From Thauera phenylacetica B4P (lineage in GTDB: Bacteria; Pseudomonadota; Gammaproteobacteria; Burkholderiales; Rhodocyclaceae), in the NCBI RefSeq assembly GCF_000310225.1, contig NZ_AMXF01000001.1:124001-188000 (forward strand): a stretch of DNA of 64,000 nucleotides. The letters run 5' to 3'. A model generated the notes under the pieces. The model had not been told where the DNA came from. It saw nothing but the letters and a program-made list of their open reading frames with translations, and made no database searches. Below are positions 708 to 62,955 of the stretch, piece by piece (the first letter of the stretch is position 1; each line of letters begins with the position of its first letter). Both the position numbers and the translations under genes were made by a program.

Positions 708-1556
708 ATGGCTCAGAAACGTCTTGTTTACATCTGGTCCCTCAGGAACGCCGCCGCGGACAAGGCGGGCCAGCACATCAACTACAAGGCCGAGGCGCGG
801 TACATGCCCTCGCCACTCGAGCATCTGGTGACCCTGCTCAACGAAGGCCCCTTGGGCGAGCATTTGGTGCTCGACCGCGTGATCTTCGATGACGACGAGG
901 GTTCTCCCGCAGACCGGGCCAAGCTGGCCGACTACGGCTTCACGCCTCGGCCCGGGGGGGCGTGGTTCTACCCTCCGGGGCTGACCGTCCAGGGGCGTGC
1001 GCTCAACGACTTGCTCACGCCCGTGCCCTCGACCTACCGGCGTTTGCCGCTGAACGATCCCCGGCGCGCCAGTGGCAAGCATGATTTCGAGGAGCGCCTG
1101 CTGGCTGCGCTGACCGACGTGCAGGCCGATGTCGTCGTGCTGGATGGCTTGCTGGTCATCCTGGATGAGTTGGTGCGTCCGGGGGCGCCATTCGCCCGGC
1201 GCATCTACAACATCCATCCCGGAATCACGCGGGATGGCTCGACCCACCAGCGGCGCGGCGCCTACGCCACGCTCGACGCCCTGCATGGCGCGCGGGGCAG
1301 GAAGGTGGTGAACTGGCAGACGATGGAGGACATCGACGTGCCCGTGGTTCGTCAGACCGGCGCGTCTTTCCATTACGTTGACAACGGCATCGACTCCGGA
1401 GAAGTCGTGGCCGACGTCCTGGCCACCGACATCGACCCCGAGGACACGATTTTGGAGCTGCGCTGGAACAACTTCCATCGCAGTCTTTTCCCGGCGCTGG
1501 AGCGGGGCCTCGCCAAGGTCGTGGGCGTCGAGCTGGGAGTGGCCCATGCCTGCTGA
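708..1556 (+). CDS. N5-hydroxyornithine formyltransferase-like enzyme
   Basis: A 282-residue protein with the formyl_trans_N fold: the NIHPG segment gives Asn168 and His170, and the YVDNGIDSGEV segment gives Asp229, matching the Asn-His-Asp triad of formyltetrahydrofolate-dependent transferases. PvdF-type enzymes formylate N5-hydroxyornithine to make the hydroxamate ligand of pyoverdine, ornibactin and related siderophores. Its position opposite the ornithine monooxygenase supports the same substrate here. The ATG at 708 is chosen because the conserved strand starts directly after it; an in-frame TTG at 666 adds only 14 unlikely residues. Its end overlaps the acylase start by 11 bases, so the two are probably translationally coupled. 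The substrate is an inference from family and context. Confidence 0.85.
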   Translation: MAQKRLVYIWSLRNAAADKAGQHINYKAEARYMPSPLEHLVTLLNEGPLGEHLVLDRVIFDDDEGSPADRAKLADYGFTPRPGGAWFYPPGLTVQGRALNDLLTPVPSTYRRLPLNDPRRASGKHDFEERLLAALTDVQADVVVLDGLLVILDELVRPGAPFARRIYNIHPGITRDGSTHQRRGAYATLDALHGARGRKVVNWQTMEDIDVPVVRQTGASFHYVDNGIDSGEVVADVLATDIDPEDTILELRWNNFHRSLFPALERGLAKVVGVELGVAHAC

Positions 1557-3981
1557 ACCCGGGATCGCGCGGGCGTGGGGGCAGCGGTGTGCCTCGGGCG
1601 CGGTGCTGATCGCCGCGTTTTCGCTCCTGATGCCCCATCAGGCGCGCGCCCGTGGGGCGTCGGATGAAGCGATGGCCGCAGTCGCGCGATCCATCGAGAT
1701 CCGGCGCACCACCGATGACATTCCGCACATCCGAGCGACCGGATGGCGCGACCTGGGCGTTGGCATCGGGTATGTGCAGGCGCAGGATGCGCTGTGCACG
1801 CTGGCGGAGTCGTTCGTGACCAACGAAGGTCGACGATCCATTTTTTTTGGCGCGGAGCAGCGTCCCTCGGTTGATTCCAATGTGGGGCGATCGAAGAACA
1901 TCGACTCGGACTTCTTCTTTCGGGCCTTTGTCGATGACGCTGCGGTGGCGCGTTTCCAGGCCGAGCAGCCCCGTGAGTTGAACGAACTCGCAGAGGGTTT
2001 TGCGCAGGGCTACAACCGCTGGCTGCGAGAGGCCCAAGCCCACCCGCGCCGCCACGCCCACCGTGCCTGCCTGGGCGAGAAATGGGTTCGCGAGATCTCG
2101 CAGCAGGACATCCACCGCCGGATGTACGCCTCGCATCTGACGGCGGGCTATCTGCAGTTTCTCCCTGACATCGTCAATGCCTCGCCTGACAGGGTGCGTG
2201 CGACCGATGCTGTCGGTTCGCGGGAGCTGCGGGTGCGTCTGGCCAACAACCTCGGCCCGCGTGCCGAGTTGGGCAGCAACGTGATCGCCTGGGGACAACG
2301 TGCCACCGGCGGCGACGGGGCCGTGCTGCTCGGCAACCCGCACTGGTATTGGGGTGGCCCGGACCGCTTCTACCAGATGCACCTCACCATTCCTGGGAAG
2401 TTGAACGTGGCGGGGGTGGGGTTCCTGGGTGTGCCGCTGGTGATGATTGGCTTCAACGAGCATGTAGCGTGGAGTCACACGGTCTCCAGCGCGCGTCGCT
2501 TTGGCTTGTTCCAGCTGGAGCTCGACCCGTCGGATCCCCGGCGCTATCTGGTCGATGGCGTGCCCGAGCCCATGCAGTCGCGCACCGTCACCGTGGAGGT
2601 GGCGGACGAGGGCGGGCAGGCTCGCCAGGTGAGCAGGACGCTGTACACGTCGAGGTTCGGCCCCGTGGTGGATCTGAGTCGGATGGACCCCGCCCTGGGC
2701 TGGTCTGCCCGACGTGCCCTGGCGGTGCGCGATGTCAACGCGGACAACTGGCGCGTCTACCGGAATTTCCTGCGGTGGAATCTGGCGGGCTCGCTCGACG
2801 AGTTCATCGCCATCCAGCGCAAGGAGGCGGCCATGCCATGGGTGAATACCGTGGCCATCGGCAAGGGAGATGGGCGGGTCTGGTATGCGGACATCGGTGC
2901 GGTACCCGATGTGCCCGATGATCACCGTCAGTCCTGCAATGCGCCTCTTGCCGGCGCCTTCGCCAAGTTCGATCCGCGCACCCCGTTCCTGGATGGCAGC
3001 CGATCGGCCTGCATTTGGCGGATCGACCGAGAGGTGGCGCAGTCAGGCGCCATGCCGGCCGAGCGGCTTCCCAGTCTCCTGCGCGAAGACTATGTGGCCA
3101 ACATGAACAACAGCTACTGGCTGGCCAACGTCGATCAGCCGCTCGACGGATTTCCTTCCTTGCTTGGGGCGGCTCAATCCGCGTTGCATCACCGCGGCCG
3201 TCTGGGGCATCAGATTGCGATTGACCTGTTGCAACGGGGTGCGCGGTCGTCCGAGGAACTCGGGCGCTGGGCGATGCAGGAAGCGCTGCGCTCACGCGCC
3301 TATTCCGCAGAGCAGTTCAAGCTGACCTTGCTCGATCAGGCCTGCTCTCGGGTGGGCGTGCCGGCAAGCGCAGGGCGTGACGCCTACACGAAGGCCTGCG
3401 GCGTTCTGCGCGCCTGGGGGAACACCGGAGAGGCGGACGACCGTGGGGCACTGCTGTGGGATGCGTTCTGGGACGAATTGGAGAAGATCCCCGAAGGGAA
3501 ACTTTACCGGACCTCTTTTTCCATCGAGGCGCCGCTGTCCACGCCCGCGGTGCCCATGCCGAGCGACGGTGGGGTGGGCAAGGCGCTGACCTCGGCCATC
3601 GCGGCGCTGACCGCCAAAGGGATACCGCTGGACGCGGCGACGGGAAATCGGCGCCATGTGCGCAGCGGCGGTCGGCGCTGGCCGATCTACGGTGGCTGCG
3701 GTGGCGCAGGCTACTTCACCGTGGCTTGCCCCGAGGACGGGAAGGACGTTCTGGACGCGAATGCGGTCTCCAACAGCTACCTGCAGGTGGTGCGTTTCGG
3801 TGAGAAGGGGGTCGAGGCGCACACGCTGCTGGCCCATGGCCAGGACGAACTCGCCGTGAGCAACGGTCGCGGCAGCGCGCCGGTTGCGCGCTACTCGCGC
3901 AAGGCATGGCTGCGTTTTCCGTTCAACGAGGCGGACATCCAGCGCGATCCGCAGTTGACGCGTGCGGTCTTGCGGCCGTGA
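1546..3981 (+). CDS. pvdQ: Periplasmic Ntn-hydrolase acylase, PvdQ-like
   Basis: An 811-residue penicillin-amidase family precursor. A hydrophobic segment around residues 18-30 ending in QARA is a signal peptide. The autocatalytic site is visible at Gly243-Ser244 (LGSNVIAWG): cleavage would expose Ser244 as the N-terminal nucleophile of the beta chain, followed by the GNPHWYW block that binds the acyl chain. Family members of this length are acyl-homoserine-lactone acylases; PvdQ removes the fatty acid from the acylated pyoverdine precursor in the periplasm. Being next to a formyltransferase and a PvdE-like exporter favours siderophore maturation over quorum quenching. The ATG at 1546 overlaps the preceding gene and gives the best signal peptide. 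Confidence 0.88.
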   Translation: MPAEPGIARAWGQRCASGAVLIAAFSLLMPHQARARGASDEAMAAVARSIEIRRTTDDIPHIRATGWRDLGVGIGYVQAQDALCTLAESFVTNEGRRSIFFGAEQRPSVDSNVGRSKNIDSDFFFRAFVDDAAVARFQAEQPRELNELAEGFAQGYNRWLREAQAHPRRHAHRACLGEKWVREISQQDIHRRMYASHLTAGYLQFLPDIVNASPDRVRATDAVGSRELRVRLANNLGPRAELGSNVIAWGQRATGGDGAVLLGNPHWYWGGPDRFYQMHLTIPGKLNVAGVGFLGVPLVMIGFNEHVAWSHTVSSARRFGLFQLELDPSDPRRYLVDGVPEPMQSRTVTVEVADEGGQARQVSRTLYTSRFGPVVDLSRMDPALGWSARRALAVRDVNADNWRVYRNFLRWNLAGSLDEFIAIQRKEAAMPWVNTVAIGKGDGRVWYADIGAVPDVPDDHRQSCNAPLAGAFAKFDPRTPFLDGSRSACIWRIDREVAQSGAMPAERLPSLLREDYVANMNNSYWLANVDQPLDGFPSLLGAAQSALHHRGRLGHQIAIDLLQRGARSSEELGRWAMQEALRSRAYSAEQFKLTLLDQACSRVGVPASAGRDAYTKACGVLRAWGNTGEADDRGALLWDAFWDELEKIPEGKLYRTSFSIEAPLSTPAVPMPSDGGVGKALTSAIAALTAKGIPLDAATGNRRHVRSGGRRWPIYGGCGGAGYFTVACPEDGKDVLDANAVSNSYLQVVRFGEKGVEAHTLLAHGQDELAVSNGRGSAPVARYSRKAWLRFPFNEADIQRDPQLTRAVLRP

Positions 3982-4006
3982 AACCCAGATAGGACGAGGT
4001 CTGCGC

Positions 4007-5725
4007 ATGGCGTATTCGATGAGTGAACGCAATCAGGCACGCGAGCTGTTGCAGCTGCTGCGGCCGTTTTTCCCATGGATCCTGCTGTCGGCCATCACCG
4101 GCGTCGGCGCGGGTGCCGCCACGGTGGCCTTGCTGGGAGTGGTCAATCAGGTGCTTGCCGGCGGCAGCGGCATGGCCGGCGACGTGCTGCTGTCCTTCGT
4201 GGCGTTGTGCCTGGTGGCCTTGCTGGGGCGCGCTGTCTCGCACGTGTCCACCAACTGGGTCGGTCAGCGCCTGGTGGCCGAAGTGCGCAAGAGCCTGGCG
4301 CGCAAGATCCTGTCGGCCCCGATCGACGCGCTCGAGCGGTACCGAACGCACCGGCTGATGCCCGTGCTGTCTCAGGACGTGGACATGATCAGCGACGTGA
4401 TCTTCGCCCTCGCCACGACCTTGGTCTCGGTGGCCACCGTCCTGGGCTGCCTGGGCTACCTGGCCTATCTGTCGCTGCCGTTGTTCGGCTTTCTGATCGT
4501 CGCGCTGGTCGGGGGGACGGTGGCCCAACTGTTTGCGCAGGCGCGCGGGGTGTCGGGCTTCTGGAAGGCGCGGGACCATGAGGAGCAACTGCACAAGACC
4601 TACCGTGACATCAGTGCGGGGGCCAAGGAACTTCGCATGCACCGGGAGCGGCGCAGCCGGATGTACAACGGGCAGATCGAACGCATCATCGGGGCGATCC
4701 GTGACGTCAACAGCAAGGCAATCAACACCTATGTGCTGGCGACTGCGTTCGGGTCCGCGCTCTACTTTCTCTTGATCGCCTGGATCCTGGGCTGGGCGGC
4801 TTTCCAGTCCACGGAGCCCGCAGTGCTCAGCGGGTTCGTGCTGGTGCTGCTGTTCCTGAAAGGGCCGATGGACCAGATCCTGGGGGTGTTGCCTGAGGTC
4901 GGGCGTGCCAAGGTGGCGTTTCAGCGAATCGCCGACCTGTCGGCCCACTTCGCCAATCCGGAGCCGCACCTGCATCTCGATCGACCCGAGAGCCGGGTGG
5001 CCCTGGAGCAGTCCATCGAGCTGAGGAACGTGCAGTACGCCTTCCAGGCGCCAGACGGTGCGACCGAAGGGTTCGTCCTGGGGCCGCTGAGCCTGCGGTT
5101 AGACAGCGGGGAACTGGTCTTCGTCGTTGGCGACAACGGGTCGGGCAAGACCACCCTCATCAAGGTCTTGCTGGGGCTGTACCCGCCAAAGGCCGGGGAG
5201 ATCCTGCTGGACGGGGAGCCGGTGACGGTGGAAACGCGGGACGACTACCGGCAGCTGTTCACGACCGTGTTCGCAGACTTCTACCTGTTCGAGGACTTGC
5301 TGGCCGGAGGCAAGGTGGACGGGCGCGAGCAGGGCGTGACGCAAGCAGCCCTGAAGTACCTGGAGCGTCTCGAGATCGCCCACAAGGTGAGCGTCAAGGA
5401 GGGGGCATTCAACACCCTGGATCTGTCCACCGGGCAGCGCAAGCGGCTGGCCTTGGTGCATGCCTATCTGGAGGGCCGGCAGGTTCTGGTGTTCGACGAG
5501 TGGGCTGCAGATCAGGACCCGACGTTCCGGCACCTGTTCTACACCGAACTGCTGCCGGAACTGCGGGATCGGGGCCATCTCGTCGTCGTCATCTCCCACG
5601 ATGATCGTTACTTCCACGTGGCCGATCGGGTGGTGCGAATGGCCAACGGGCGCATCGTCGAGGACCGAAAGACCGGTGCGGACGAGGCAGGGCCGGTGTT
5701 GGCAGCAGGATTGGCTGGCGCATGA
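4007..5725 (+). CDS. pvdE: Cyclic-peptide/siderophore precursor exporter, PvdE-like ABC protein
   Basis: A 572-residue fused ABC exporter half: about six membrane segments in residues 15-310, then a nucleotide-binding domain. Walker A is GDNGSGKT at 375-382; the signature is the unusual LSTGQRKR, Walker B is VLVFDEWAADQDP, and the switch histidine lies in ISHDD. The LSTGQ signature and DEWAADQDP are characteristic of the SyrD/PvdE cyclic-peptide exporters, which carry siderophore precursors across the inner membrane. A ribosome site (AGGACGAGG) lies seven bases before the ATG at 4007. It follows the acylase by 25 bases, so cytoplasmic assembly, export and periplasmic deacylation are encoded together. 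Confidence 0.9.
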   Translation: MAYSMSERNQARELLQLLRPFFPWILLSAITGVGAGAATVALLGVVNQVLAGGSGMAGDVLLSFVALCLVALLGRAVSHVSTNWVGQRLVAEVRKSLARKILSAPIDALERYRTHRLMPVLSQDVDMISDVIFALATTLVSVATVLGCLGYLAYLSLPLFGFLIVALVGGTVAQLFAQARGVSGFWKARDHEEQLHKTYRDISAGAKELRMHRERRSRMYNGQIERIIGAIRDVNSKAINTYVLATAFGSALYFLLIAWILGWAAFQSTEPAVLSGFVLVLLFLKGPMDQILGVLPEVGRAKVAFQRIADLSAHFANPEPHLHLDRPESRVALEQSIELRNVQYAFQAPDGATEGFVLGPLSLRLDSGELVFVVGDNGSGKTTLIKVLLGLYPPKAGEILLDGEPVTVETRDDYRQLFTTVFADFYLFEDLLAGGKVDGREQGVTQAALKYLERLEIAHKVSVKEGAFNTLDLSTGQRKRLALVHAYLEGRQVLVFDEWAADQDPTFRHLFYTELLPELRDRGHLVVVISHDDRYFHVADRVVRMANGRIVEDRKTGADEAGPVLAAGLAGA

Positions 5726-5753
5726 ATCCTCGGTGGGTGCAAGGAATTGGCCG

Positions 5754-6812
5754 GTGCTGATCGTCTACAACAGTGTTCATCCGCGCCATCACGGGCGCGT
5801 GGAGATGTTTCGGGGCGCGCTGGTCGAGAGTGTGGAGGTGCCCGCGCGGGTCGAACGTGTGCGCCAGGAGCTGGTGCGCCGCGGGATGGGGCGCTTCGAG
5901 CTGCCGGGTGAAATGGATCTGGCCTTGTTGAACAAGGTCCATGCGCCGTCCTTCGTGGCGTTCCTGCGCGGTGCCTGGGCGGAATGGGTTGCGCTCGATC
6001 CGGCCAATGCCGGGAAGGATGCCCTGCCGTCATACTGGCCGATCCGCGCGTTCCGCTCCGATGTGGTTCCCGACACTTTCGTGGCGCGCCTGGGCCAATA
6101 CACTTTCGATGCGGGCACGCCGCTGACCGCCGGCAGCTGGGAAGCGGCCTGCGAGGGTGCCAACTGCGCGATCACGGCAGCCCGGCGTGTTCTCGCTGGC
6201 GAGCCGGTGGCTTTCGCACTGACGCGGCCGCCCGGGCACCATGCGGGATGGGACTATTTCGGCGGCTATTGCTTTCTGAACAATGCGGCGCTTGCGGCGC
6301 AGGCCTTGCGTGACGGCGGAGCGCAGCGCGTGGCGATCCTCGACGTGGATTACCACCATGGCAACGGGACGCAGACGATCTTCTACGACCGTCCCGACGT
6401 GTTGTTCGTGAGCATACACGCCGATCCGCGGACCGATTACCCGTACTACATCGGCTACGCCGAAGAAACCGGTGCCGGTCTCGGCGAAGGGTTCAACGTG
6501 AACCTGCCGCTGCCGCGGGGTACCGATGGGGCGGCCTGGTGCCGGGCTCTTGAGATGGCCCTGCAGAGAATCCAGGCATTCAAGGCGGACGCATTGGTGG
6601 TGTCGCTTGGGGTGGACACCTACGAAGGCGATCCGATCTCGGGCTTTCGGCTGACCCGCGACGACTTCCTGAGGGTTGGCAGCCGGTTGGGCCGGTTGGC
6701 CATGCCGACGGTCCTGGTGTTCGAAGGCGGCTACGCGGTGGACGACATCGGCATCAACACCGCCAACGTGCTCCAGGCTTACTTGAGCGACGGAGTCGGG
6801 TTGGCCCGATGA
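5754..6812 (+). CDS. HDAC / acetylpolyamine amidohydrolase family deacetylase
   Basis: A 352-residue zinc deacetylase. The active-site pair is His162-His163 (RPPGHHAG), and the zinc ligands are Asp199, His201 (DVDYHHGNGT) and Asp288 (SLGVDTYEGDP), close to the ligand spacing known for bacterial acetylpolyamine amidohydrolases. Loop GGYAVDD carries the probable transition-state tyrosine. A GTG start at 5754 is chosen because AAGGA lies eight bases before it and the domain begins immediately (VLIVYNS); an upstream start would overlap the exporter. Known substrates of the family are acetylated polyamines and lysines. Membership of a siderophore operon suggests removal of an acyl group from a hydroxyornithine or polyamine intermediate, but nothing in the sequence proves that. 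Confidence 0.85.
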   Translation: MLIVYNSVHPRHHGRVEMFRGALVESVEVPARVERVRQELVRRGMGRFELPGEMDLALLNKVHAPSFVAFLRGAWAEWVALDPANAGKDALPSYWPIRAFRSDVVPDTFVARLGQYTFDAGTPLTAGSWEAACEGANCAITAARRVLAGEPVAFALTRPPGHHAGWDYFGGYCFLNNAALAAQALRDGGAQRVAILDVDYHHGNGTQTIFYDRPDVLFVSIHADPRTDYPYYIGYAEETGAGLGEGFNVNLPLPRGTDGAAWCRALEMALQRIQAFKADALVVSLGVDTYEGDPISGFRLTRDDFLRVGSRLGRLAMPTVLVFEGGYAVDDIGINTANVLQAYLSDGVGLAR

Positions 6813-6895
6813 GGATGTCGGCATAGGACCGGCCCGTAGGCAATGAACGAAGTGATGCATCCCCCGATGCGTCTGGCTGGGAAATCAAAATGTGA

Positions 6896-6940
6896 CTTAT
6901 AACGCGTGCACTGATGGGGCGTGGATTCATAGAGCGTGTC
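6896..6940. repeat. Three tandem 15-bp repeats upstream of XRE regulator 1
   Basis: Units begin at 6896, 6911 and 6926: CTTATAACGCGTGCA, CTGATGGGGCGTGGA and TTCATAGAGCGTGTC. Each carries GCGTG at the same place, and a fourth partial unit (CCTATAG) follows. The array ends 31 bases before the XRE start at 6972. An array with the same unit length and copy number precedes the paralogous regulator at 62956, which marks it as the likely operator. Confidence 0.7.
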
Positions 6941-6971
6941 CCTATAGCTTTCCTTCTGTTTTGGAAATGCT

Positions 6972-7205
6972 ATGGAACTCGACTACGATCCCCGCAAGCG
7001 CTTTGGTGCCCATCTTGCCGCCGTTCGGCGCAAGAGGGGTATATCGCAGGAGCGCCTTGCGCTGGAGAGCGGGCTGGCTCGCAGCTACCTGAGCGGTGTG
7101 GAGCGGGGCTTGCGCAACATCGCCCTGGTCAATATCTGCATCCTCGCGCAGGCCCTCGACATGCAGCCCTCCGAATTGCTGGACTTCCGGGCCACCGGTG
7201 CATAG
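6972..7205 (+). CDS. Small XRE-family transcriptional regulator (copy 1)
   Basis: A 77-residue protein that is almost entirely one Cro/C1-type helix-turn-helix domain: FGAHLAAVRRKRGISQERLALESGLARSYLSGVERGLRN at residues 11-49 holds both helices. It has no ligand domain. It begins MELDYDPRKRFG, as does the 84-residue paralogue at 62956, and the two are close throughout the HTH. Both follow three 15-bp repeats, so autoregulation is likely. It sits between the siderophore maturation operon and the convergent fhuF-like gene, so a role in iron or siderophore control is plausible but not shown. Confidence 0.85.
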   Translation: MELDYDPRKRFGAHLAAVRRKRGISQERLALESGLARSYLSGVERGLRNIALVNICILAQALDMQPSELLDFRATGA

Positions 7206-7262
7206 CGAGATCGGGGCCGGCCGACGGCCGCCATTCAGGCTCGCTCGACCTCGTTGATGCGG

Positions 7263-8072
7263 CTATTGACCTGGGTCACGGTCGCCCTCACACACCTCCA
7301 GCAGCGTTTCGTCGCCCGGTTGAAGGGGAGTGCGGTGCTGCGGGTCGAGTGGGCAAGCGCCGCAGTATCCGTGGCCCGGGAGCCGGTAGTACAGGCAGCA
7401 CTGCCGGTGCAGCCGGATGGTGACAGGGGTACCGTCCTCGATCCGCCTGGCTTCGCGTTGTCGGGCATACAGCGGGTTGCGGTGGTGGTCCGGCCAGTGC
7501 GGTTCGTGCAGCAGGGCGTGCTGGTCTGCGGCGACATGGGGGGCGTTTCCGGTCAAGGCCACCGCTTGCTCTAGGATGGTCTGCAGATACCGTGCGGCAT
7601 TGGCCCACAGGATTTTCTGCGGCAGGCGCGTTTGCCGAGCGATGGCTGCGAACAGCGGTTCGAGGTGGTGCCACAGCAGGGGACCATAGCGAACTGCCGT
7701 CGGTTCGCCCGCCATTGAACTGCCTTCCAGTGCGATGTGGAAGCGCGTCGGTGTGCCGGAGCCGTCCAGTTCGACCGCGACGTGCTCAGCGCGTATCGGA
7801 AAACCGTGCTGCAGCACGCTAGCAGCGGCGGCGACCGGCGGCAGCAGGGCCCACAGATAGTCCATGCTCCAGGCGGAGGCTGCAGCCCGCAGATCGTCAC
7901 CCGTGACGCCACGGCCGCGTGCATGTTGCCGGATCGCGCCGGCCAGCAGCCGATCGTCCCGAATCAGGCACGAGACCTGGATGGCATCGGGCGGCCAGCG
8001 CGGGGAGCAGGCGAGCGACTCTCCATAGGGTGCCCACTCGCCCTGGAACAAGGGGGTGAGCAGAGGAATCAC
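7263..8072 (-). CDS. fhuF: Siderophore-iron reductase, FhuF family
   Basis: A 269-residue protein ending in the FhuF [2Fe-2S] motif: Cys225-Cys226, ten residues, Cys237, two residues, Cys240 (CCLYYRLPGHGYCGAC). FhuF-type proteins reduce ferric hydroxamate siderophores in the cytoplasm so that iron is released. The start is GTG at 8072, with GAAGAG about eight bases upstream. Transcription probably comes from the ECF-type promoter at 8158-8182, placing the reductase under the same control as siderophore synthesis. It converges on the XRE gene with a 57-base gap. Confidence 0.88.
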   Translation of the reverse strand: MIPLLTPLFQGEWAPYGESLACSPRWPPDAIQVSCLIRDDRLLAGAIRQHARGRGVTGDDLRAAASAWSMDYLWALLPPVAAAASVLQHGFPIRAEHVAVELDGSGTPTRFHIALEGSSMAGEPTAVRYGPLLWHHLEPLFAAIARQTRLPQKILWANAARYLQTILEQAVALTGNAPHVAADQHALLHEPHWPDHHRNPLYARQREARRIEDGTPVTIRLHRQCCLYYRLPGHGYCGACPLDPQHRTPLQPGDETLLEVCEGDRDPGQ

Positions 8073-8157
8073 CGTGGGTTCTCTTCAAGAAGACGATGGC
8101 ATTCGCCGAGCGGGAGCGGGCCTGGCAAGGTCGAGGTCGCGAGGGTCACACACCCAA

Positions 8158-8182
8158 GACGCATGGGCGCCCGCGGTGTTTA
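8158..8182 (-). promoter_or_regulatory. Iron-starvation ECF sigma promoter for fhuF
   Basis: On the minus strand TAAAC (8182-8178), 16 bases, then CGTCTT (8161-8156). Its -35 element shares the TTTAAA palindrome at 8179-8184 with the plus-strand promoter at 8181, so the two promoters are back to back. The fhuF start is about 85 bases downstream. Confidence 0.75.
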
Positions 8183-8205
8183 AACAAATCGGCGGGTCGC
8201 CCGTC
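8181..8205 (+). promoter_or_regulatory. Iron-starvation ECF sigma promoter, rightward
   Basis: TAAAC at 8181-8185, 16 bases, CGTCTT at 8202-8207. It points to the 8304-10932 genes. It cannot be occupied at the same time as the fhuF promoter because the two -35 boxes overlap by two bases. Confidence 0.7.
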
Positions 8206-8303
8206 TTCAATGGAGCGGCTTCATCCGCGTCGCGCGCCCACCCTGGTAGCAAGGTATCGAATTGAGATACTTTCTGCCGTTTTCATCGAATTCGAACCGT
8301 CCA

Positions 8304-8596
8304 TGCTTGCCTATCCTCACCAGCAGCTATGCCGCCTGTTCCTTGCTGAGGCGCTGACCAACATCGCGAGCGGCGCGTGCCGCCTGGCGTCGCTCGTCAC
8401 CCAGGGCAACGCGCCGCTGGCGGTGGCCGAGGTGGATGGGGACAAGCCTGAGTCGATCGTCCCGGACGGCCATCGCCATTTTTTGTTCGCTGATCGCCTG
8501 ATCCGTGTCCAGGGCGCTCGGATCACAGGGATCGGGGCTTCTTTTGGGTTTGCTGCGCTTAGACCGCCGTTCGGCAAACTGACCGCTGCGGCATGA
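8304..8596 (+). CDS. Hypothetical protein between ECF promoter and barrel protein
   Basis: A 97-codon open frame begins at ATG 8304, about 95 bases downstream of the rightward ECF promoter. Its stop overlaps an ATG at 8593 (ATGA), which opens the frame of the large barrel protein. I do not recognise the product (start MLAYPHQQLCRLFLAEALTN) and see no membrane segment or motif. Long open frames also exist on the opposite strand here, so this may be an untranslated leader. The promoter position and the coupled stop are the only support. Confidence 0.3.
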
Positions 8597-8727
8597 CGGT
8601 CGGGCGGTCTGGAATCGCCGGCGGCTGGCGCTTGCTGATGTGGATGACAGGGCTGTGTGGCCTTGGGTATGGCTGCGCGCGTTGCCGCGGCAGTTTTCGA
8701 CGTTATGCATACCTGTATGGAAAGGGC

Positions 8728-10932
8728 TTGGGCCATGTCCGCCAGGCGGTGGCGCTCTCCGTGGCAATGATGGCGTCTTTCGCGATGGCCGCTCCGGATG
8801 CAGCGCCTGCATCGCCGCCCCTCATGGCCGCCTTGCGGTTGCCCGCGAAGGCAGATTTCGCTGGTGCTGTGCCGTCTCTGGTCGATGCCGCACCCATCGG
8901 CGGTTTTGTGCAGGTGGCCCCCGTGGCCGGATCGGCCCCCACGCGCCGCACTGAGTTGCGCATGGCCCACGACGGCAGGGCCTTGCACATCCAGGTGCGC
9001 GCCTACGACCCCGAACCGTCGGCCATCGTGGCGCAGCAGATGCGTCGGGACGTGGAGGGTATGCTCAAAGAGGATCAGGTGACGCTGGTGATCGATCCCG
9101 ATGGCGATGGCCGCAACGGTTACCTTTTCGCGGTCAATGCCAACGGCGCCCAGTTCGACGCGCTGATTTTCGACGGTGGGCAGATGCGCTTCGACTGGGA
9201 CGCGCTGTGGCGCAGCGAGGCGCGCATCGAGGCCGACGGCTGGCGTGCCGACATCACCATTCCTCTGTCGGTCTTCGGGCGCGGGCGCCCGGTCGGCGAG
9301 GACGAGGCGCGCACCTGGCGCGTCAACGCCGAACGTTGGATGCCGCGCGGCAGCGAGCGTGTGCGGCTGGCCGGCATCCAGCCCGACAAGGAGGTGTACT
9401 CCCTGGGCGATGCGCTGCCCATGCCGGCCATCGTCGCCGATCAGGACGGCTGGGGGCTGCGCCTCAAGGCCTCGCTGCGCGCCACCAGCGAGTCGTCGGC
9501 CGCCTCGGGCACCGGCCAGGCGCGGCAGCGCCTGGAGCCCGGTCTGGAGGTGTTCCACGAGAGCCCTACCGGGCTGCGGACCACGGCCGCGCTGAACATC
9601 GACTTCGGCGAGGCGGAGGCCGATGAGCGCACCGTCAACCTCACGCGCTTTGAACTCTTCCGCCCCGAGAAGCGCGAGTTCTTCCTTCAGGACGCGGGGC
9701 GCTTCACGTTCGGCGGCCTGGTGGAGAGCGCCGTCATTCCGTACTACTCGCGACGGATCGGGCTGGATGCGACCGGGCGTGGGCGCAGCCTGGATGCCGG
9801 CCTCAAGTTCTCGGGACAACTCGCTGGCACCGATTTCGGCCTTTTTGGCGCTCGCGTGGCCGGCGGGCCGACCGAGCCGGGCGCGCCTGATCAGCGCGCC
9901 GCCGATGTGGCCGTGCTGCGGGTCGCGCGTCCGCTGGGCCATCGCAGCCGCGTCGGGCTGACGGCCACCCGTGGCAATCCCGAAGGCACGCCCGGCAGCA
10001 GCCTGTGGGGCGTGGACTATCAGTTCCGGGACACCAACTGGGTGCCACCGGGCGGGGAGGGTGGCAAGACCCTGGAGACGCATGCCTGGGTGCTGGAATC
10101 GAGCAACGCCGGGTTGGGCGATGGCCGGTCTTGGGGGGCGAGCGTGAAGTATCCCAACGTCGGCCTCATGGGCAACGCCGAGGTGCAGCGCATCGATGCG
10201 CACTTCAATCCCGCCCTGGGCTACCTCGCCGAGGCTGGCGTGACGCGTGGGCAGGGAGAACTGGGCTGGTGGCATCGCACCCGAATCGGTGAGGACATCA
10301 TCCCGGGCGTCGATTGGAATTTCCGTCGCAAGCAGGACGGTAGCGAGCGCTCTTGGTTGCTCAACCCGGAGATCGGCTACACCAATGCGGCCGGCGATAC
10401 GGTAATGGTCGAGGTGTTCTTCGAAGGGGATCGCCTGGCCTCTGCCTACACCCCTGTGCCTGGCGTCACTGTTCAGCCGGGCCGCTATGGCTGGCACTAC
10501 CTGTTCGGGTACCTGGAGACCGCGCCGTCCCGGCCGGTCTCGGCGACTGCGGAGTTGCGCAGCGGCGGGTACTACGACGGGCATCGCGACGACCAGACCT
10601 TGCAGCTGGCCTGGAAGCCCAGCCCGTACTGGGGCTGGCGGGTGGGCCTCGCGCGTAACGCCATTCGCCTGCCGTCGGGCAGTTTCACCGTCCGCACCGC
10701 CTCCTTGCGCCTGGATCACACCCCCAGCACACGTCTGGCTCAAAGCCTGCTGCTGCAGTGGGACAACGTCTCGAAGGAACTGGGCGTCAGCGCGCGCTTG
10801 CGATGGCTATGGAGGCCGGACCGGGAAGTGATTTTCTCGCTCGATCGCCTGGGCTACACGGGCGATCAGCGCGACCTGCTGCCCAATCAGACCCGCGCCA
10901 TGCTCAAGCTGGTGTGGAATCTTGAGCGGTGA
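8728..10932 (+). CDS. CBM9-like / DUF5916 outer-membrane barrel protein
   Basis: About 734 residues if started at TTG 8728. A hydrophobic stretch ending AMAAPDAAP fits a signal peptide. An N-terminal carbohydrate-binding-family-9-like domain (about residues 30-210) contains DGRALHIQVRAYDPEP, DQVTLVIDPDGDGRNGYLF and the DW..W.SEARI block. The rest holds RFELFRPEKREFFLQDAGRF followed by amphipathic strands to the C-terminus, the pattern of DUF5916 barrels. The function of this family is unknown. An ATG at 8593 would add 45 residues that do not look like a signal peptide. It lies behind an iron-starvation promoter, so it may serve the siderophore system, but that is inference. Confidence 0.75.
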   Translation: MGHVRQAVALSVAMMASFAMAAPDAAPASPPLMAALRLPAKADFAGAVPSLVDAAPIGGFVQVAPVAGSAPTRRTELRMAHDGRALHIQVRAYDPEPSAIVAQQMRRDVEGMLKEDQVTLVIDPDGDGRNGYLFAVNANGAQFDALIFDGGQMRFDWDALWRSEARIEADGWRADITIPLSVFGRGRPVGEDEARTWRVNAERWMPRGSERVRLAGIQPDKEVYSLGDALPMPAIVADQDGWGLRLKASLRATSESSAASGTGQARQRLEPGLEVFHESPTGLRTTAALNIDFGEAEADERTVNLTRFELFRPEKREFFLQDAGRFTFGGLVESAVIPYYSRRIGLDATGRGRSLDAGLKFSGQLAGTDFGLFGARVAGGPTEPGAPDQRAADVAVLRVARPLGHRSRVGLTATRGNPEGTPGSSLWGVDYQFRDTNWVPPGGEGGKTLETHAWVLESSNAGLGDGRSWGASVKYPNVGLMGNAEVQRIDAHFNPALGYLAEAGVTRGQGELGWWHRTRIGEDIIPGVDWNFRRKQDGSERSWLLNPEIGYTNAAGDTVMVEVFFEGDRLASAYTPVPGVTVQPGRYGWHYLFGYLETAPSRPVSATAELRSGGYYDGHRDDQTLQLAWKPSPYWGWRVGLARNAIRLPSGSFTVRTASLRLDHTPSTRLAQSLLLQWDNVSKELGVSARLRWLWRPDREVIFSLDRLGYTGDQRDLLPNQTRAMLKLVWNLER

Positions 10933-11027
10933 TGGTGAAGCGGGTTGCGTTGTTGTGATGTGCACGCCACATGCAGTGTGATCCCTCATTCGGTCAACCG
11001 GAGTGGCGGGCCCGATGACAGCTTTGC

Positions 11028-11052
11028 TAAACAAACGCACGGGCAACTCGTC
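11028..11052 (+). promoter_or_regulatory. Iron-starvation ECF sigma promoter for the Fur paralogue
   Basis: TAAAC at 11028-11032, 16 bases, CGTCTT at 11049-11054. It also shares the extended TAAACAAA with the sites at 506-530 and 8181. The Fur-family start is 92 bases downstream. Confidence 0.75.
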
Positions 11053-11143
11053 TTGGTTGACGGTGGCGGCGCGCTGCATTGGGGCGACGACTGCTGGGCG
11101 GGTGACCAAGGCTGTGTGGTCTTGAACGTATCAATATCTGTGC

Positions 11144-11590
11144 ATGAAAACCCTCCAAGAGTTGGACGACCAGGATCTGAAACGGACCGGGCTGAAGGCG
11201 ACGCTGCCGCGTCGTCTCGTGCTGGAGATCATCCGCTCCAGCAGCGAGCGCCACCTGTCCGCCGAAGATGTCTATCGGCGTCTGCTCGCTCATGGGCATG
11301 ACGTGGGGCTGGCTACGGTGTACCGGGTGCTGTCGCAACTGGAATCGGCGGGCCTGTTGTCTCGCAACGTCTTCGAGGCGGGCAAGGCGCTGTTCGAACT
11401 CAATGAGGGTGGCGATCACGACCACCTGATCTGTCTCGGGTGCGGGCGGGTGGACGAGTTCCGCAACGAGGCGGTCGAGGCATTGCGGCAGGACGTGGCG
11501 GCGGCCCACCGCTACCAACTCTCGCGCCACCGACTGGCGCTCTACGGCTACTGCCCAGACTGCACCCCAGGGCACCCAGCGGGCCGATGA
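11144..11590 (+). CDS. Fur-family metalloregulator
   Basis: A 148-residue Fur protein. The winged helix spans residues 10-85, with recognition helix LATVYRVLSQLESAGLL. The dimerisation and metal-binding half carries DHDHLICLGCGRVDEF and ends with a CPDC pair, so both cysteine pairs of a structural zinc site are present. Fur proteins repress iron genes when loaded with Fe(II). Unusually, the upstream promoter is of the iron-starvation sigma type, so this copy would be made when iron is scarce. No strong ribosome site precedes the ATG at 11144. It could be Zur- or PerR-like; the sequence alone does not decide the metal. Confidence 0.85.
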   Translation: MKTLQELDDQDLKRTGLKATLPRRLVLEIIRSSSERHLSAEDVYRRLLAHGHDVGLATVYRVLSQLESAGLLSRNVFEAGKALFELNEGGDHDHLICLGCGRVDEFRNEAVEALRQDVAAAHRYQLSRHRLALYGYCPDCTPGHPAGR

Positions 11591-11630
11591 CGTCCCATCG
11601 ATTTCGATTCACTCTTGAAGGAGTTTTGCC

Positions 11631-12110
11631 ATGTCGTTTGCCGTTTCCCGCCGCTTCTCCACCATGCCTTGCCCGGATGTCGTCCTGGGTGGGCTTCTGC
11701 TGCTGGCTGTCGCGTCATCGGCACAAGCCGCGGACCACACCGTGAAGATGCTCAGCACCGGCAAGGACGGAGCCATGGTGTTCGAGCCCGCTTTCGTGAA
11801 GGTGGCGGTGGGGGACACGGTCGTGTTCACGCCAACCGAAAAAGCCGCCCACAACAGCGCCTCCCTGCTGGTGCCGCCGGGCGCGAACAGCTGGAAGAGC
11901 GACCCGGACAAGGAGTTCAAGGTCAAGGTCGAGAAGGAAGGTGTCTACCTCTACGCCTGCCAGCCGCACAAGATGATGGGCATGGTCGGTGTGATCCAGG
12001 CCGGCAAGCCGGTCAACTTGGCCGATGCCAAGGCCGCGGCGGTGAAGGAGCAGGCGGCCTTCGCCATGGGCAAGGACCGCTTCGACAAGGCACTGGCCCA
12101 GGTCAAGTGA
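11631..12110 (+). CDS. paz: Pseudoazurin (periplasmic blue copper protein)
   Basis: A 159-residue cupredoxin with a signal peptide (hydrophobic 18-30, cleavage after AQAA near 34). The type-1 copper ligands are all visible: His74 (KAAHNS), Cys110, His113 and Met118 (CQPHKMMGM), with the Cys+3 and Cys+8 spacing of pseudoazurin. It carries electrons in the periplasm, in known cases to copper nitrite reductase or cytochrome peroxidase; neither partner is in this window. AAGGAG lies seven bases before the ATG. It follows the Fur gene by 40 bases and could share its transcript, which would place copper electron transfer under iron limitation. Confidence 0.9.
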   Translation: MSFAVSRRFSTMPCPDVVLGGLLLLAVASSAQAADHTVKMLSTGKDGAMVFEPAFVKVAVGDTVVFTPTEKAAHNSASLLVPPGANSWKSDPDKEFKVKVEKEGVYLYACQPHKMMGMVGVIQAGKPVNLADAKAAAVKEQAAFAMGKDRFDKALAQVK

Positions 12111-20411: not shown

Positions 20412-20912
20412 TCAGCCACGGTGTTGCGGACAGAATCGCCGCTCGAACCACTCGGTGAGCATGGCCTTGTCGTACACCAGCGGATCGCCGTCGGAGCGGA
20501 CAAACGCACTGCGAGACAGGTAGTCCATGTCCGAAACACGCTCCTGCCGTTCGGCGAGTACCTTGCCCTGTGCGTCCTTCCAGAGGTACTCGAGGTCCGC
20601 CCGCGGCCACGTGACACCGCGCATGATGCGCACATCGTACGTGCCAGGGCGCCACCACTCGTGTCGGCCCGCCAGGTCGAGGTCGATGATTCTGATGTCC
20701 AGCGTATGGCCCGCCGGCAGGCAGCGATCTCCCAGGGCCTGCAGGTGCCGCTTGATGGACTCGAGGTTGCGCTGGGAGCGCACGCCGTAGTCGCCCGCGT
20801 CGGCATAGTGCTCGGGATGGATGAATTGCACCGCGACGTCGGCTGCAGCATGCAGCACGGGCGCCGACATGGCTGCGACACAGCACAGCGCACGGAACGT
20901 TCTGATGGTCAT
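20412..20912 (-). CDS. Periplasmic DUF3016 family protein
   Basis: A 166-residue secreted protein: signal peptide MTIRTFRALCCVAAMSAPVLHA, then VAVQFIHPEHYADAG, the L.I.I.DLDLAGRHE core, and RIMRGVTWPRADLEY. This fits DUF3016, a periplasmic family of unknown function in beta- and gammaproteobacteria. ATG 20912 gives the signal peptide directly. It converges on cluster A. Confidence 0.75.
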   Translation of the reverse strand: MTIRTFRALCCVAAMSAPVLHAAADVAVQFIHPEHYADAGDYGVRSQRNLESIKRHLQALGDRCLPAGHTLDIRIIDLDLAGRHEWWRPGTYDVRIMRGVTWPRADLEYLWKDAQGKVLAERQERVSDMDYLSRSAFVRSDGDPLVYDKAMLTEWFERRFCPQHRG

Positions 20913-21070
20913 GGTGAACCCTCGACTTGCTACATGGTATTCGACTCCGTCGACCTTCATCTGGTTGCACCGAGCACATGGAGGCCGACATCGAAATCGG
21001 GCCGATAGGGCAGTGATTTTGGATGGCGTTCCGGTCTTGCCGCCAGCACGATGGGCTTTTCGAGACCTCC

Positions 21071-22276
21071 ATGGACGCTCAGCGCTATTCCATCGCCGGA
21101 CAGGTGTATGACGCTCTGGATCCTCGCTTGCAGGAGGTTCTGGCGCGCGTGCGCGAGGGGGTGGATCGGCCGCGTTGCCTGTGCGTGCCTGACGGTGTCG
21201 AGATGTACGTGGCGCGCCACCGGCAGTACGTCGTCAAGCGCATGCCGGGCACTGGTGGGCAGCATCATCCGCAGTGCCCGTCCTATGAGCCGGATGCCCA
21301 GCAGTCCGGGCTCGGCGAACTGATGGGGGAGGCCATCATCGAGACCCTGGCGGGCAGCGTCGAGTTGCGCGTGGATTTTCCGTGGGTGCGCGTCCTCGGC
21401 CGGGGTGTCGCGCCGGGTGAGCCCCATGATCCGGGTGAGATCAACGTCCCGCGTCGCCGGATGAGCCTGCGCGCCTTGACGCACTTCCTTTTCGAACGGG
21501 CGGGCTTCAATCGCTGGTTGCCCGCCATGGCGGGCAAGCGCAACCAGGGTGTCATCTGCAAGCACTTGCTGGAGGCCGCGGCGGAGATGATCGTCAAGGG
21601 ACAGCCACTGGCTCAACGCCTCCATGTCCCCGAGCCCTTCAGCGAGGCTTCGAAAGCCGCGGCCGCCCAGCGCCGCCGCGACAAGCTCGCGATCCTGCAA
21701 CCACGTGAGGGTCAGTCGCCGCTGGCGGTGGTTCTGGGCGAGTTCAAGACCTGCGAGGCGACAGCGTTTGGGCGTCGTGTGTGGATCAAGCACATGCCTG
21801 ACGCGCCGCTGCTCATCGCCGACAAGACCTGGGAGCGCGCTCGGCGGGCCTATTCGGCGTACTTCGAAGTGCAGGACGCCGATGCGGGCTACCGGCCACG
21901 GCTGGTGTTGACGGCCTTGATTCGCGCCAAGCGTGAGCACGTCTATGAAGTGGACGCGTTGAGCTTGATGTTGACGACCGAACACTGGATTCCCGTGGAG
22001 GGCGCGCACGAAATTGAATTCATCCACGCCCTGGTGGAGCAGCAGCGGCGTTTCATCAAGCCCTTGCGTTACGACGCGAGGATCACGGCGGGGTTTCCGA
22101 ACGCACTGCTGGCTGACACCGGCGCCGAGCCAGTCGCCCTTCACGTGGTCAGCGCGTTCGCCGAGGCAAAGGAACGTGCGGCCAAAGTGCAGGTGATTGC
22201 GCGGATAGCGCCTCCGCCCTGGACCTGGTGGACCGATCAGCCGATGCCGACATTGCCGGCTTGTGCGGTGTGCTGA
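21071..22276 (+). CDS. DUF1173-like ICE protein
   Basis: A 401-residue soluble protein. RCLCVPDGVEMYVARHRQYVVKRMPGTGGQHHPQCPSYEP near the start holds Cys and His residues spaced like a zinc site, and the body (LRALTHFLFERAGFNRWLPAMAGKR, GVICKHLLEAA) resembles DUF1173 proteins found on conjugative elements and plasmids. Function is unknown. ATG 21071 follows the only sensible junction; an earlier in-frame start would add 16 residues. It marks the return of mobile-element sequence after cluster A. Confidence 0.6.
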   Translation: MDAQRYSIAGQVYDALDPRLQEVLARVREGVDRPRCLCVPDGVEMYVARHRQYVVKRMPGTGGQHHPQCPSYEPDAQQSGLGELMGEAIIETLAGSVELRVDFPWVRVLGRGVAPGEPHDPGEINVPRRRMSLRALTHFLFERAGFNRWLPAMAGKRNQGVICKHLLEAAAEMIVKGQPLAQRLHVPEPFSEASKAAAAQRRRDKLAILQPREGQSPLAVVLGEFKTCEATAFGRRVWIKHMPDAPLLIADKTWERARRAYSAYFEVQDADAGYRPRLVLTALIRAKREHVYEVDALSLMLTTEHWIPVEGAHEIEFIHALVEQQRRFIKPLRYDARITAGFPNALLADTGAEPVALHVVSAFAEAKERAAKVQVIARIAPPPWTWWTDQPMPTLPACAVC

Positions 22277-22306
22277 ACACGGCGTCCTCCGAGGGAGGAA
22301 GAGTTC

Positions 22307-22349
22307 GGGTACGGTACCCTACCTTTGGAGGAAATCGGGTACCATACCC
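22307..22349. promoter_or_regulatory. Twin palindromic operators before the defence-like island
   Basis: GGGTACGGTACCC (22307-22319) and GGGTACCATACCC (22337-22349) are two palindromes with the same arms, 30 bases centre to centre, so on the same DNA face. They lie between the DUF1173 gene and the HTH regulator, which probably binds them to control 22381-26765. Confidence 0.65.
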
Positions 22350-22380
22350 GACGTTGGCGAACTCTGTTGAAAGGATGGCT

Positions 22381-22887
22381 ATGCGACTGGTCCCGACCCC
22401 GGTGGCATCGAAGCTGACGGGCCTTTCGATAGAGAAGCTTCGCGAGTGGACCAGTCGACGTGCGCTGGTGCCGGCGGACGTGCGTCCGAAGACGAAAGGA
22501 TCGCCAGCACAGTTCAGTTGGCAAACCATCCTCGTCCTTCGGCTGGCCGTGCTTCTTCGCGACCAGTTTGCTGTTGAGCTGCAGACGCATCAAAGCGCGT
22601 TCGCCCAGTTGCGCAAGGCGCTGCGATCAACCTCTTTCATTGCGCTTTGGGGCCGGCGCTTGGCGTTGGCTCCCGGAGGCACATGGTTCTTTCTGGATGA
22701 TGGGTCGCTGCCGTCCGAAGCCGATGCCATCGTTGTTCGTCTCGATCCGCACCTTGCTGTCCTGCGGGACGGCTTTGCCTTGCCTGATGTGGCTGCTGGT
22801 CAACTTGATCTTTTCTCCTTGCCTGCCACGCGCGATACCCCGACGGTCAAGGCGGTGAGTCGCCCCCGCCAGAGGAGCTCAGCATGA
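22381..22887 (+). CDS. MerR-like HTH regulator of the methylase/nuclease island
   Basis: A 168-residue protein whose N-terminus (VASKLTGLSIEKLREWTSRRALVPADVRPKTKGSPAQFSWQTILVLRLAVLL) is a MerR-type winged helix with an arginine-rich wing. The C-terminal half is not recognised. ATG 22381 is chosen because AAAGG lies seven bases upstream; ATG 22375 is too close. The twin operators directly upstream suggest autoregulation. Its stop overlaps the ATG of a 23-codon frame leading to the methylase. Confidence 0.7.
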   Translation: MRLVPTPVASKLTGLSIEKLREWTSRRALVPADVRPKTKGSPAQFSWQTILVLRLAVLLRDQFAVELQTHQSAFAQLRKALRSTSFIALWGRRLALAPGGTWFFLDDGSLPSEADAIVVRLDPHLAVLRDGFALPDVAAGQLDLFSLPATRDTPTVKAVSRPRQRSSA

Positions 22888-22955
22888 GCCGCCAAGCTTG
22901 GAGCGTCGCAGTGCGTGGTCGGCACGGTTTGATGCGCAGAGGGAGAGGGGCGTAG
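22884..22955 (+). CDS. Possible 23-codon coupling peptide
   Basis: ATG 22884 overlaps the HTH stop (ATGA), has AGGAG seven bases upstream, and reads 23 arginine-rich codons to a TAG one base before the methylase GTG at 22957. It may exist only to carry ribosomes from the regulator to the methylase. No homology is claimed. Confidence 0.35.
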   Translation: MSRQAWSVAVRGRHGLMRRGRGA

Positions 22956-22956
22956 C

Positions 22957-38466: not shown

Positions 38467-38740
38467 CTATCCGGTCCACCGGGACCCCTTCCATCCCGCC
38501 AGCGTTCATCAGCGCCAGCGAGGTCAGACGACACGCACGATCGTGCAGAGGTGCCATGAGCGGCGCTTCAGCCTCGGCGTTCGGTTGACCTTGCATTTCA
38601 CGCAAGCGGAAATCGCGAGGGCAGGGACGGGCCGACGCTTGTTCCGGTCGGGAGGAGAGGGCGTTCGCGGGCTTGAAAGGTGGTAGCGCGCTGAGAGCAT
38701 GAATCGTCGGCATCTGCCGAGGTTCATGAAGGAACGAAAC

Positions 38741-45797: not shown

Positions 45798-46156
45798 TGT
45801 TCTTCCCCGAAGGCGCCGTCCGCGTCCATGTCTATGGCCGCCCGGTCGACATGCGCAAATCCTTCGACGGCCTGTACGCGCTCACGCGCCAGGCGCTCGG
45901 CTGCGATCCGCTGTCGGGCGAGCTGTTCGTGTTCATCAACCGGCGTGGCACGCAGATGAAGGTGCTGTACTGGGACCGCACCGGATTCTGCGTGTGGGCC
46001 AAGCGTCTCGAGCAGGGGCGCTTCGTGTCGAACTGGGCGCAGGTCCGCACGCGCCAGATGGACTGGACCGGGCTCAAGCTCTTGCTCGAAGGCATCGAGC
46101 CGGCCCGCACCAAGCGCCGTTTCAGATTGCCCCAGAACGCCGTGAAACCCGCATGA
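45797..46156 (+). CDS. tnpB: IS66 accessory protein TnpB
   Basis: A 119-residue protein of the IS66 Orf2 family with the diagnostic VHVYGRPVDMRKSFDGLYAL and FVFINRRGTQMKVLYWDRTGF blocks. The role in transposition is established for the family but mechanistically unclear. It is complete and coupled to tnpA. Confidence 0.93.
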   Translation: MFFPEGAVRVHVYGRPVDMRKSFDGLYALTRQALGCDPLSGELFVFINRRGTQMKVLYWDRTGFCVWAKRLEQGRFVSNWAQVRTRQMDWTGLKLLLEGIEPARTKRRFRLPQNAVKPA

Positions 46157-46185
46157 ATGCTGGGCTCTACGGTAAAATATGCGCC

Positions 46186-62481: not shown

Positions 62482-62832
62482 TCACGAGAAGCTGATGGCA
62501 AAGCCATGTTCCTGAAAGTAGGTCCGTGCCGCTGCCAGTTCCTCCTTGGTTGCGGACAGGATGACGGTGCTGGCCGTGCTTTGCCACATGTCGATCACCA
62601 GCTTGTGATCGCCGATGACAATCTGCAGCGCTTCGGGCGTCAGGGCTGAACTGAGTTGGGTCATGGCGCCGTTCTCAATGAGCAGGACGCCATCGTGGAA
62701 GGCGATTCTGAAGCAGCCGATGCTGAGCCGGTTGGCGGGAGAGCCCAAAGGCGTCTTCTTGAGGCCATCGAGGACTCGGAACGTCTGCGGATCGAGACAG
62801 CGCAATGGTTTGTCTGGTGCGGGCGCTTTCAT
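62482..62832 (-). CDS. Hypothetical protein divergent from XRE regulator 2
   Basis: A 116-residue soluble protein (MKAPAPDKPLRCLDPQTFRVLDG...). Function unknown. ATG 62832 is taken; the three 15-bp repeats at 62880-62924 lie in the divergent gap, so this gene may be a target of the XRE regulator. Confidence 0.55.
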   Translation of the reverse strand: MKAPAPDKPLRCLDPQTFRVLDGLKKTPLGSPANRLSIGCFRIAFHDGVLLIENGAMTQLSSALTPEALQIVIGDHKLVIDMWQSTASTVILSATKEELAAARTYFQEHGFAISFS

Positions 62833-62879
62833 TCTTGTGTTCAAGGTCAAGTCAAGCAAGCGGGCTTGTGTGTATGTTA

Positions 62880-62924
62880 CTCATAGAGCGTGCTCGTATA
62901 AAGCGTAGATTCATGGGGCGTGCG
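62880..62924. repeat. Three tandem 15-bp repeats upstream of XRE regulator 2
   Basis: Units begin at 62880, 62895 and 62910: CTCATAGAGCGTGCT, CGTATAAAGCGTAGA and TTCATGGGGCGTGCG. Unit length, copy number and the GCGTG core match the array at 6896 before the paralogous regulator. The array ends 31 bases before the XRE start, the same distance as in copy 1. Confidence 0.72.
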
Positions 62925-62955
62925 CCGTTAGTGTCCAGTTCAGAGCAAAAAAACC

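Follow-up and report, generated by a model that had tools for sequence, protein, structure and literature searches.

The window, by which we mean the whole stretch of 64,000 nucleotides analysed here, contains two small regulator genes of the XRE type, XRE1 and XRE2, each preceded by an array of three units in a 15-bp register (Table 1). The original prediction placed these arrays at 6896-6940 and 62880-62924, ending in both cases 31 bases before the ATG (at 6972 and 62956), and counted GCGTG in five of the six units and GCGTA in the other; all of this was borne out. The true start of each array lies, however, 5 bp further upstream: TGTGAC at 6891 and TGTTAC at 62875 are assigned to the first site because TGTnAC is as conserved as the core among relatives.

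Chance is a poor explanation of the spacing. There are 37 copies of the core ATnnnGCGT in the window, counting both strands, so that about 0.01 pair is expected at any given spacing. Four pairs are seen at 15 bp and two, from the same arrays, at 30 bp, with none on either strand of the window at any other spacing from 10 to 29. A looser pattern, allowing up to two mismatches, matches four times, always within the arrays; the mean in shuffled sequence was 1.16, and 2 of 100 shuffles reached four. Across the whole genome (5.0 Mb in 681 contigs) the exact two-unit pattern has four matches, all in the two arrays, and its reversed control none.

Table 1. Regulator genes, operator sites and predicted promoter elements in the window.
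Feature	Position	Strand	Basis
XRE1 operator site 1 (TGTGACTTATAACGCGTG), strongest C-box match	6891..6908	+	15/18 bases as in Esp1396I OL, best in window on both strands; column conservation in relatives
XRE1 operator site 2 (CACTGATGGGGCGTG)	6909..6923	+	15-bp register; centre about -43 from predicted transcription start
XRE1 operator site 3 (GATTCATAGAGCGTG)	6924..6938	+	15-bp register; centre about -28, inside predicted promoter
XRE1 predicted poor -35 (TGGATT), overlapped by sites 2 and 3	6922..6927	+	3/6 consensus bases by count
XRE1 predicted -10 (TAGCTT), +46 from ATA of site 1	6945..6950	+	TAnnnT at +46 in relatives; position
XRE1, orphan C-protein-like regulator, 77 aa	6972..7205	+	phmmer C.AhdI E=1.7e-16; HTH_3; contact residues conserved
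Divergent 125-aa ORF, no family assigned, 5' end toward XRE2 operator; possible second target	62482..62859	-	Divergent ORFs in 28/41 loci
XRE2 operator site 1 (TGTTACTCATAGAGCGTG)	62875..62892	+	14/18 bases as in Esp1396I OL, second-best in window; column conservation in relatives
XRE2 operator site 2 (CTCGTATAAAGCGTA)	62893..62907	+	15-bp register
XRE2 operator site 3 (GATTCATGGGGCGTG)	62908..62922	+	15-bp register
XRE2 predicted poor -35 (TAGATT)	62906..62911	+	3/6 consensus bases by count
XRE2 predicted -10 (TAGTGT), +46 from ATA of site 1	62929..62934	+	TAnnnT at +46 in relatives; position
XRE2, paralogous orphan C-protein-like regulator, 84 aa	62956..63210	+	75% identical to XRE1; HTH_3; aligned with C proteins

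Elsewhere in the window lie a Fur-family gene, TonB receptors, ABC transporters, a DUF1173 gene and an Eco57I-like methylase. The penicillin-amidase-like, ABC transporter, histone-deacetylase-like and FhuF ferric reductase genes clustered at 1378-8072 are reminiscent of a siderophore locus.

Controller (C) proteins are the textbook timers of restriction-modification (R-M) systems, and XRE1 and XRE2 are, on sequence grounds, homologues of them. The two are the only close family members in the genome, the next four matches being at most 37% identical. In a search of solved structures the top matches to XRE1 are C.AhdI (1y7y), C.BclI (2b5a, E=1.2e-12) and C.Esp1396I (3clc, E=7e-7). XRE1 and XRE2 resemble the R-M controllers C.Esp1396I, C.AhdI and C.PvuII both in being small XRE/HTH_3 proteins and in their base-contact residues. 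For C.Esp1396I, the major base contacts are described as R35, T36 and R46, with T36A giving no measurable binding (PMC4041747). We aligned 34 proteins: 28 orphans including the two from the window, five plasmid-borne R-M-linked C proteins and a fragment of C.AhdI. Counterparts of R35, Y37 and R46 are invariant in all rows, the backbone-contacting Y37 being kept as Y throughout, while the position of T36 holds either S or T; XRE1 and XRE2 do not differ at the recognition residues identified in C.Esp1396I. The residue before the contact arginine R35 (position 36 of XRE1) tells the two groups apart: all six R-M controllers have D there, and the 28 orphans, both window proteins among them, have A or G.

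The same family relationship is visible in the DNA. The original prediction knew of no described operator with this layout, a view that does not stand: R-M controllers classically use a C-box in which two dimer sites are set 15 bp apart with a conserved GT between them, and this has been solved as a tetramer on 35 bp (PMC3758141, PMC4041747). The boxes are described as pseudo-dyads of GAC and GTC around TATA with a conserved TG outside, OL and OR together making up the 35-bp operator (PMC3758141), and two such sites with a conserved spacer GT are reported for most of the C proteins tested (PMC4824078). The idea that neighbouring sites lie about 1.5 helical turns apart is sound (15 bp is arithmetically some 1.43 turns); the further idea that successive proteins would bind on opposite faces should not be taken to mean that they bind independently, as neighbouring dimers touch in the Esp1396I complex.

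As query we used the 35-bp Esp1396I operator. The identical sequence stands on pEsp1396 (1402-1436), ahead of the C gene and a BstXI-family endonuclease gene, with the right boxes of its two dyads 15 bp apart and CGTG between the dyads. When the OL 18-mer is run over both strands of the window, the first sites of the XRE1 and XRE2 arrays rank first and second, and the next place scores 13. Over the full 35 bases each array scores 20 against a window mean of 7.9 (sd 2.4), a match that is not unique, since a chance place near 2462 on the minus strand scores 21. The XRE1 array shares with the Esp1396I operator twelve consecutive identical bases (ATGTGACTTATA) as well as the CGTG. Paired sites are likewise present at six plasmid-borne C genes that adjoin R and/or M genes (L148, L150, L152, L153, L155 and L156); the distance is 15 bp in four of them and 16 bp in L148 and L150. 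L149, which has no annotated R-M gene, and L154, in which no paired site was seen by eye, were left out of this set. The OL match and the paired sites of the R-M controllers together identify the GCGTG of the original prediction as the conserved C-box spacer, in a 15-bp layout already described.

Each array is thus, in sequence terms, a three-site form of the known C-box. Like those of the R-M controllers, the dyads lie 15 bp apart before the regulator's own gene, with TGTnACTYATA and a CGTG spacer, but there are three of them in the window arrays and two or three in relatives, against the two (OL and OR) of the R-M controllers. Most relatives have CAC/GnG boxes, a variant of GAC/GTC. The exchange of D for A or G beside the main contact arginine may accompany this change from GAC to CAC. 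In sites 2 and 3 the left half-box is degenerate, and binding there may be weak or absent.

That the two paralogues share an operator is supported by their relatives: arrays could have been missing before the orthologous regulators, and they are present there and before more distant regulators too, within about 200 bp upstream in 82 of the 97 loci found by protein searches. Seventy-one of these are clear, site 1 having at least 7 of 9 core bases, and the remaining 11 are from Pandoraea, where site 1 is degenerate (4-5 of 9). The 97 include the two window genes and exclude the R-M-linked plasmid genes, together with four loci (L141, L142, L143 and L147) that had been found through the operator pattern itself and would have biased the count. 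The genome collection gave 80 loci among 259 confirmed relatives and further protein searches gave more, many of them near copies. No recognisable operator was seen in 14 of the 97, namely seven from Pandoraea, three cut by contig ends, and L016, L081, L099 and L100. The one remaining locus, L098, comes from a relative in the same order; it combines a pair of C-box sites of the GAC/GTC type, 16 bp apart, with the D that characterises R-M controllers.

Of 30 dereplicated loci, 24 have a second unit at +15 and 11 have a third at +30; at any other displacement from +8 to +49, at most four score as high. The TG and CAC are near invariant among 33 dereplicated loci. All ten close relatives within the window's own genus have the operator, with three sites in L096 and L097 and two in the other eight.

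The relatives fall into two classes of operator length, distinguished by the position of a -10-like element. With positions counted from the ATA of site 1, 19 of 33 dereplicated loci have a TAnnnT hexamer at +46 and 12 have one at +31; the next-highest offset has 5, and base composition would give about 0.6 per position by simple arithmetic. In 78 orphan loci with an array (L141 and L143 are included here), it is found at +46 in 62, at +31 in 10, at both in one and at neither in five. Three of these five have CATCGT at +46, one has CAGCAT at +31 and in one the element is shifted by two bases. Six two-site loci from the window's genus have TAGCAT, at +31 in five and +32 in the other. The element therefore stands at +31 where there are two sites and at +46 where there are three, so that the classes differ by exactly one 15-bp unit. 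Both window genes belong to the +46, three-site class. Many of the +46 relatives have a poor third unit, with 3-4 of 9 core bases. On a poorly resolved tree of 63 proteins and 80 columns, a simple count gives four changes between two and three sites. Labels on this tree were assigned by hand for L078, L085 and L087 (CATCGT) and L055, all taken as +46, and for L143 (CAGCAT) and the six R-M controllers, taken as +31; ten loci without an extracted protein are absent from it.

No consensus sigma-70 promoter was found near XRE1 or XRE2, and the promoter positions in Table 1 are predicted from a weak hexamer. Transcription would start some 7 bases after the -10, near 6957 and 62941. The six R-M controllers have a -10-like hexamer ending in AT at +31 (AATTAT, GATTAT, CATTAT, CATCAT, CATGAT and TTTAAT), a match that is suggestive only, since no more than four of these cases are independent and the promoter assignment published for Esp1396I is not identical. 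In Esp1396I the TATA of OR is described as lying inside the -35 box (PMC3758141), and this -35 assignment is not identical to the position predicted here for the two-site class.

For XRE1 and XRE2, homology of the proteins and of the operators, conservation, register and the 15-bp phase shift of the -10-like element are established. Taken together, they lead us to propose, with a probability of roughly 70%, that XRE1 and XRE2 are orphan C-like autoregulators acting through three-site C-boxes as a cooperative switch, first activating and then repressing. Binding, dimer stoichiometry, activation, repression and cross-regulation by the two proteins are all parts of the proposal that we infer. Each 15-bp unit would present one pseudo-dyad (nACTY-ATA-GnGCGTG, with CAC or GAC as left box and GnG as right) to one homodimer, and the dimers would sit side by side, centred at about -58, -43 and -28 from the predicted start. 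In PvuII, OL is reported to activate and OR, which overlaps the -35, to repress, in a cooperative response that shows hysteresis (PMC3695507). Sites 2 and 3 would, by position, be the counterparts of OL and OR, and site 1, the best conserved, would be the extra one. At low protein levels the strong upstream site or sites would be filled and a promoter with a -10 but a poor -35 activated, by analogy with PvuII and Esp1396I; at higher levels the -28 site would be filled too and the promoter shut. Autoregulation would in this way limit itself and switch sharply, with one dimer more than usual taking part in the cooperation. XRE1 and XRE2 probably act on each other's genes in addition to their own, as their DNA-contact residues are identical and their arrays are built of a common unit.

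A simpler reading is plain negative autoregulation, in which a TTGTCA and, 17 bp on, a TATAGA form the real promoter, with site 1 in the spacer and bound dimers occluding RNA polymerase. TTGTCA followed at that distance by (T/C)ATAG is indeed seen in many relatives, and XRE2 site 2 contains a TATAAA. Against this, just 22 of 33 loci have the first T of TTGTCA, and only 7 of the 33 have a T as sixth base of the proposed -10; the XRE1 array has no recognisable form of either hexamer, the near-invariant TG and CAC are what a C-box leads one to expect, and TAnnnT at +31 or +46 is the better fit to a -10. We regard plain repression as unlikely.

The activation-then-repression switch proposed above concerns genes that, unlike R-M controllers, have no adjoining R-M genes and no C-R operon: the neighbours of XRE1 and XRE2 in the window are FhuF, a histone-deacetylase-like gene, GGDEF and ORFs of no named family. 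This lack of R-M neighbours, and the presence of the Eco57I-like N6 methylase about 16 kb from XRE1 in the same region, would also suit relics, that is C genes left behind after loss of an R-M system, with operators kept only through self-regulation. Such an origin seems distinctly improbable, however, given that gene and operator are conserved across proteobacterial families, with open reading frames and a constant register, and that the split between A/G in the orphans and D in the R-M controllers suggests an old separate lineage rather than recent decay. The methylase gene itself, encoding 1034 aa, is followed by a 235-aa ORF at 22957-26765, near the DUF1173 gene; upstream of it (20800-23100) no C-box-like site was seen by eye.

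At 41 loci (a few near copies included), the next downstream ORF of at least 100 aa has the opposite orientation in 23, follows on the same strand at no more than 150 bp in four, lies further away in 13 and is absent in one. The orphan C-like regulators are thus mostly monocistronic, and with only 4 of 41 having a close same-strand ORF, a C-R operon arrangement is not the rule. We scanned 114 of 136 flanking ORFs; R-M families were not among the best 25 of the 79 Pfam families matched, and defence models gave only single-member matches among the best 25 of 27. BrxA and ThsB had one match each among these 114 ORFs.

A divergent ORF faces the array in 28 of the 41 loci, the XRE2 locus among them, which might suggest that the array serves another gene or process, such as that neighbour or replication-type iterons, with the regulator nearby by accident; this we consider highly improbable. 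Ten divergent genes scanned belong to unrelated families or none, and it is the regulator that recurs as partner of the array; XRE1 lacks a divergent gene altogether, the one upstream of it (5682-6812) being co-directional with it; and C-box homology already accounts for the sequence. The ten comprise an outer-membrane barrel, an ACT domain protein, a YecR lipoprotein, DUF2726 twice, a hydrolase and four without a match, so that no conserved divergent-gene function was seen among them. A DUF2726 gene stands divergent to an orphan C-like regulator at L071:519-1382, in an alphaproteobacterial bin, and at L092:454-1425, in a relative from the window's own genus.

No wider regulon, as a genome search had been expected to reveal, emerged in the window's genome. 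Single-site matches with up to two mismatches number 72 there, fewer than the 119 of the reversed control, and the three best outside the arrays (one mismatch) all fall within mechanical reading frames. Strong sites (TGTCACTYATAG..., at most one mismatch) number six in the 398 other genomes of the order, where the reversed control gives one, and each of the six lies directly before a gene of the orphan C-like regulator family. A stricter two-unit pattern gave four matches in 399 genomes of the order. One is the window; the others (L104, L106 and L107) look like chance, because they lack TGTCAC and the reversed control also gave four.

The C-box layout and the switch are already known; what differs here is the presence of three sites, the orphan genes and the wide conservation. 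No literature was found on 15-bp direct repeats with XRE regulators, nor any description of orphan C proteins under the names tried, although the subscription literature is thinly covered and an earlier description is possible. The terms 'three C-boxes', 'third C-box' and 'third operator' are absent from the R-M literature among the matches listed; the single match to 'three C-protein' among those listed is a paper on Esp1396I, in which OM, OL and OR make up the three sites. A search with operator strings gave, judging by title, only the Esp1396I structure paper as relevant. A parallel outside an R-M context is QseC of ICEMlSymR7A, likewise an XRE regulator and a weak match to XRE1 (9xz9, E=0.006). 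QseC is C-protein-like and has two operators. It pairs with a qseM gene (PMC5882170), whereas no such partner is seen beside XRE1 or XRE2. C.Csp231I is described as activating and repressing through OL and OR, yet its class has CTAAG-n5-CTTAG boxes with an 18-nt spacer between the sites (PMC4824078), as opposed to the 15-bp register of the window arrays.

Some 7 kb around XRE1 (window 5000-12000; L157 and L158) are 94% identical in Roseateles oligotrophus and Acidovorax facilis, both of which also carry XRE2 relatives with arrays. This identity, with XRE2 relatives in both genera, indicates that the region has moved between genera. Tentatively, and with more doubt than confidence, the widespread family may be viewed as a self-contained switch with no strong target beyond its own gene, tuned by adding whole 15-bp sites and moving the -10 along with them, and forming here, in two copies, a cross-wired pair on a horizontally shared region. 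Addition of one site would turn a two-dimer operator into a three-dimer one, with the -10 shifted by exactly one unit. A common orphan branch with a conserved, longer operator, if real, would mean that the timer module lives outside restriction. The +15 shift would then offer a natural series, two-site versus three-site, on how the number of cooperating dimers affects switch threshold and sharpness, and many genes annotated merely as 'helix-turn-helix transcriptional regulator' would gain a name and an operator.

Other links to mobile elements were considered. Relatives of the L047 type are not supported as markers of Tn4371-like ICEs, the TrbE/VirB4 family PF03135 not being found in three of the four genomes of this type that were tested (those of L047, L055 and L079); it is present in the L052 genome, a match that does not in itself place it near the regulator. 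Tn4371 elements are reported to carry an XRE gene (PMC2789088), which we do not equate with the orphan C-like family. A viral link was likewise set aside, with no matches to the operator pattern in viral contigs and two phage records matched by the protein at 45% and 41% identity. In the window itself, a Gp3-like recombination directionality factor at 38699-40027 and an IS66 transposase at 45994-47805 are marks of mobile DNA.
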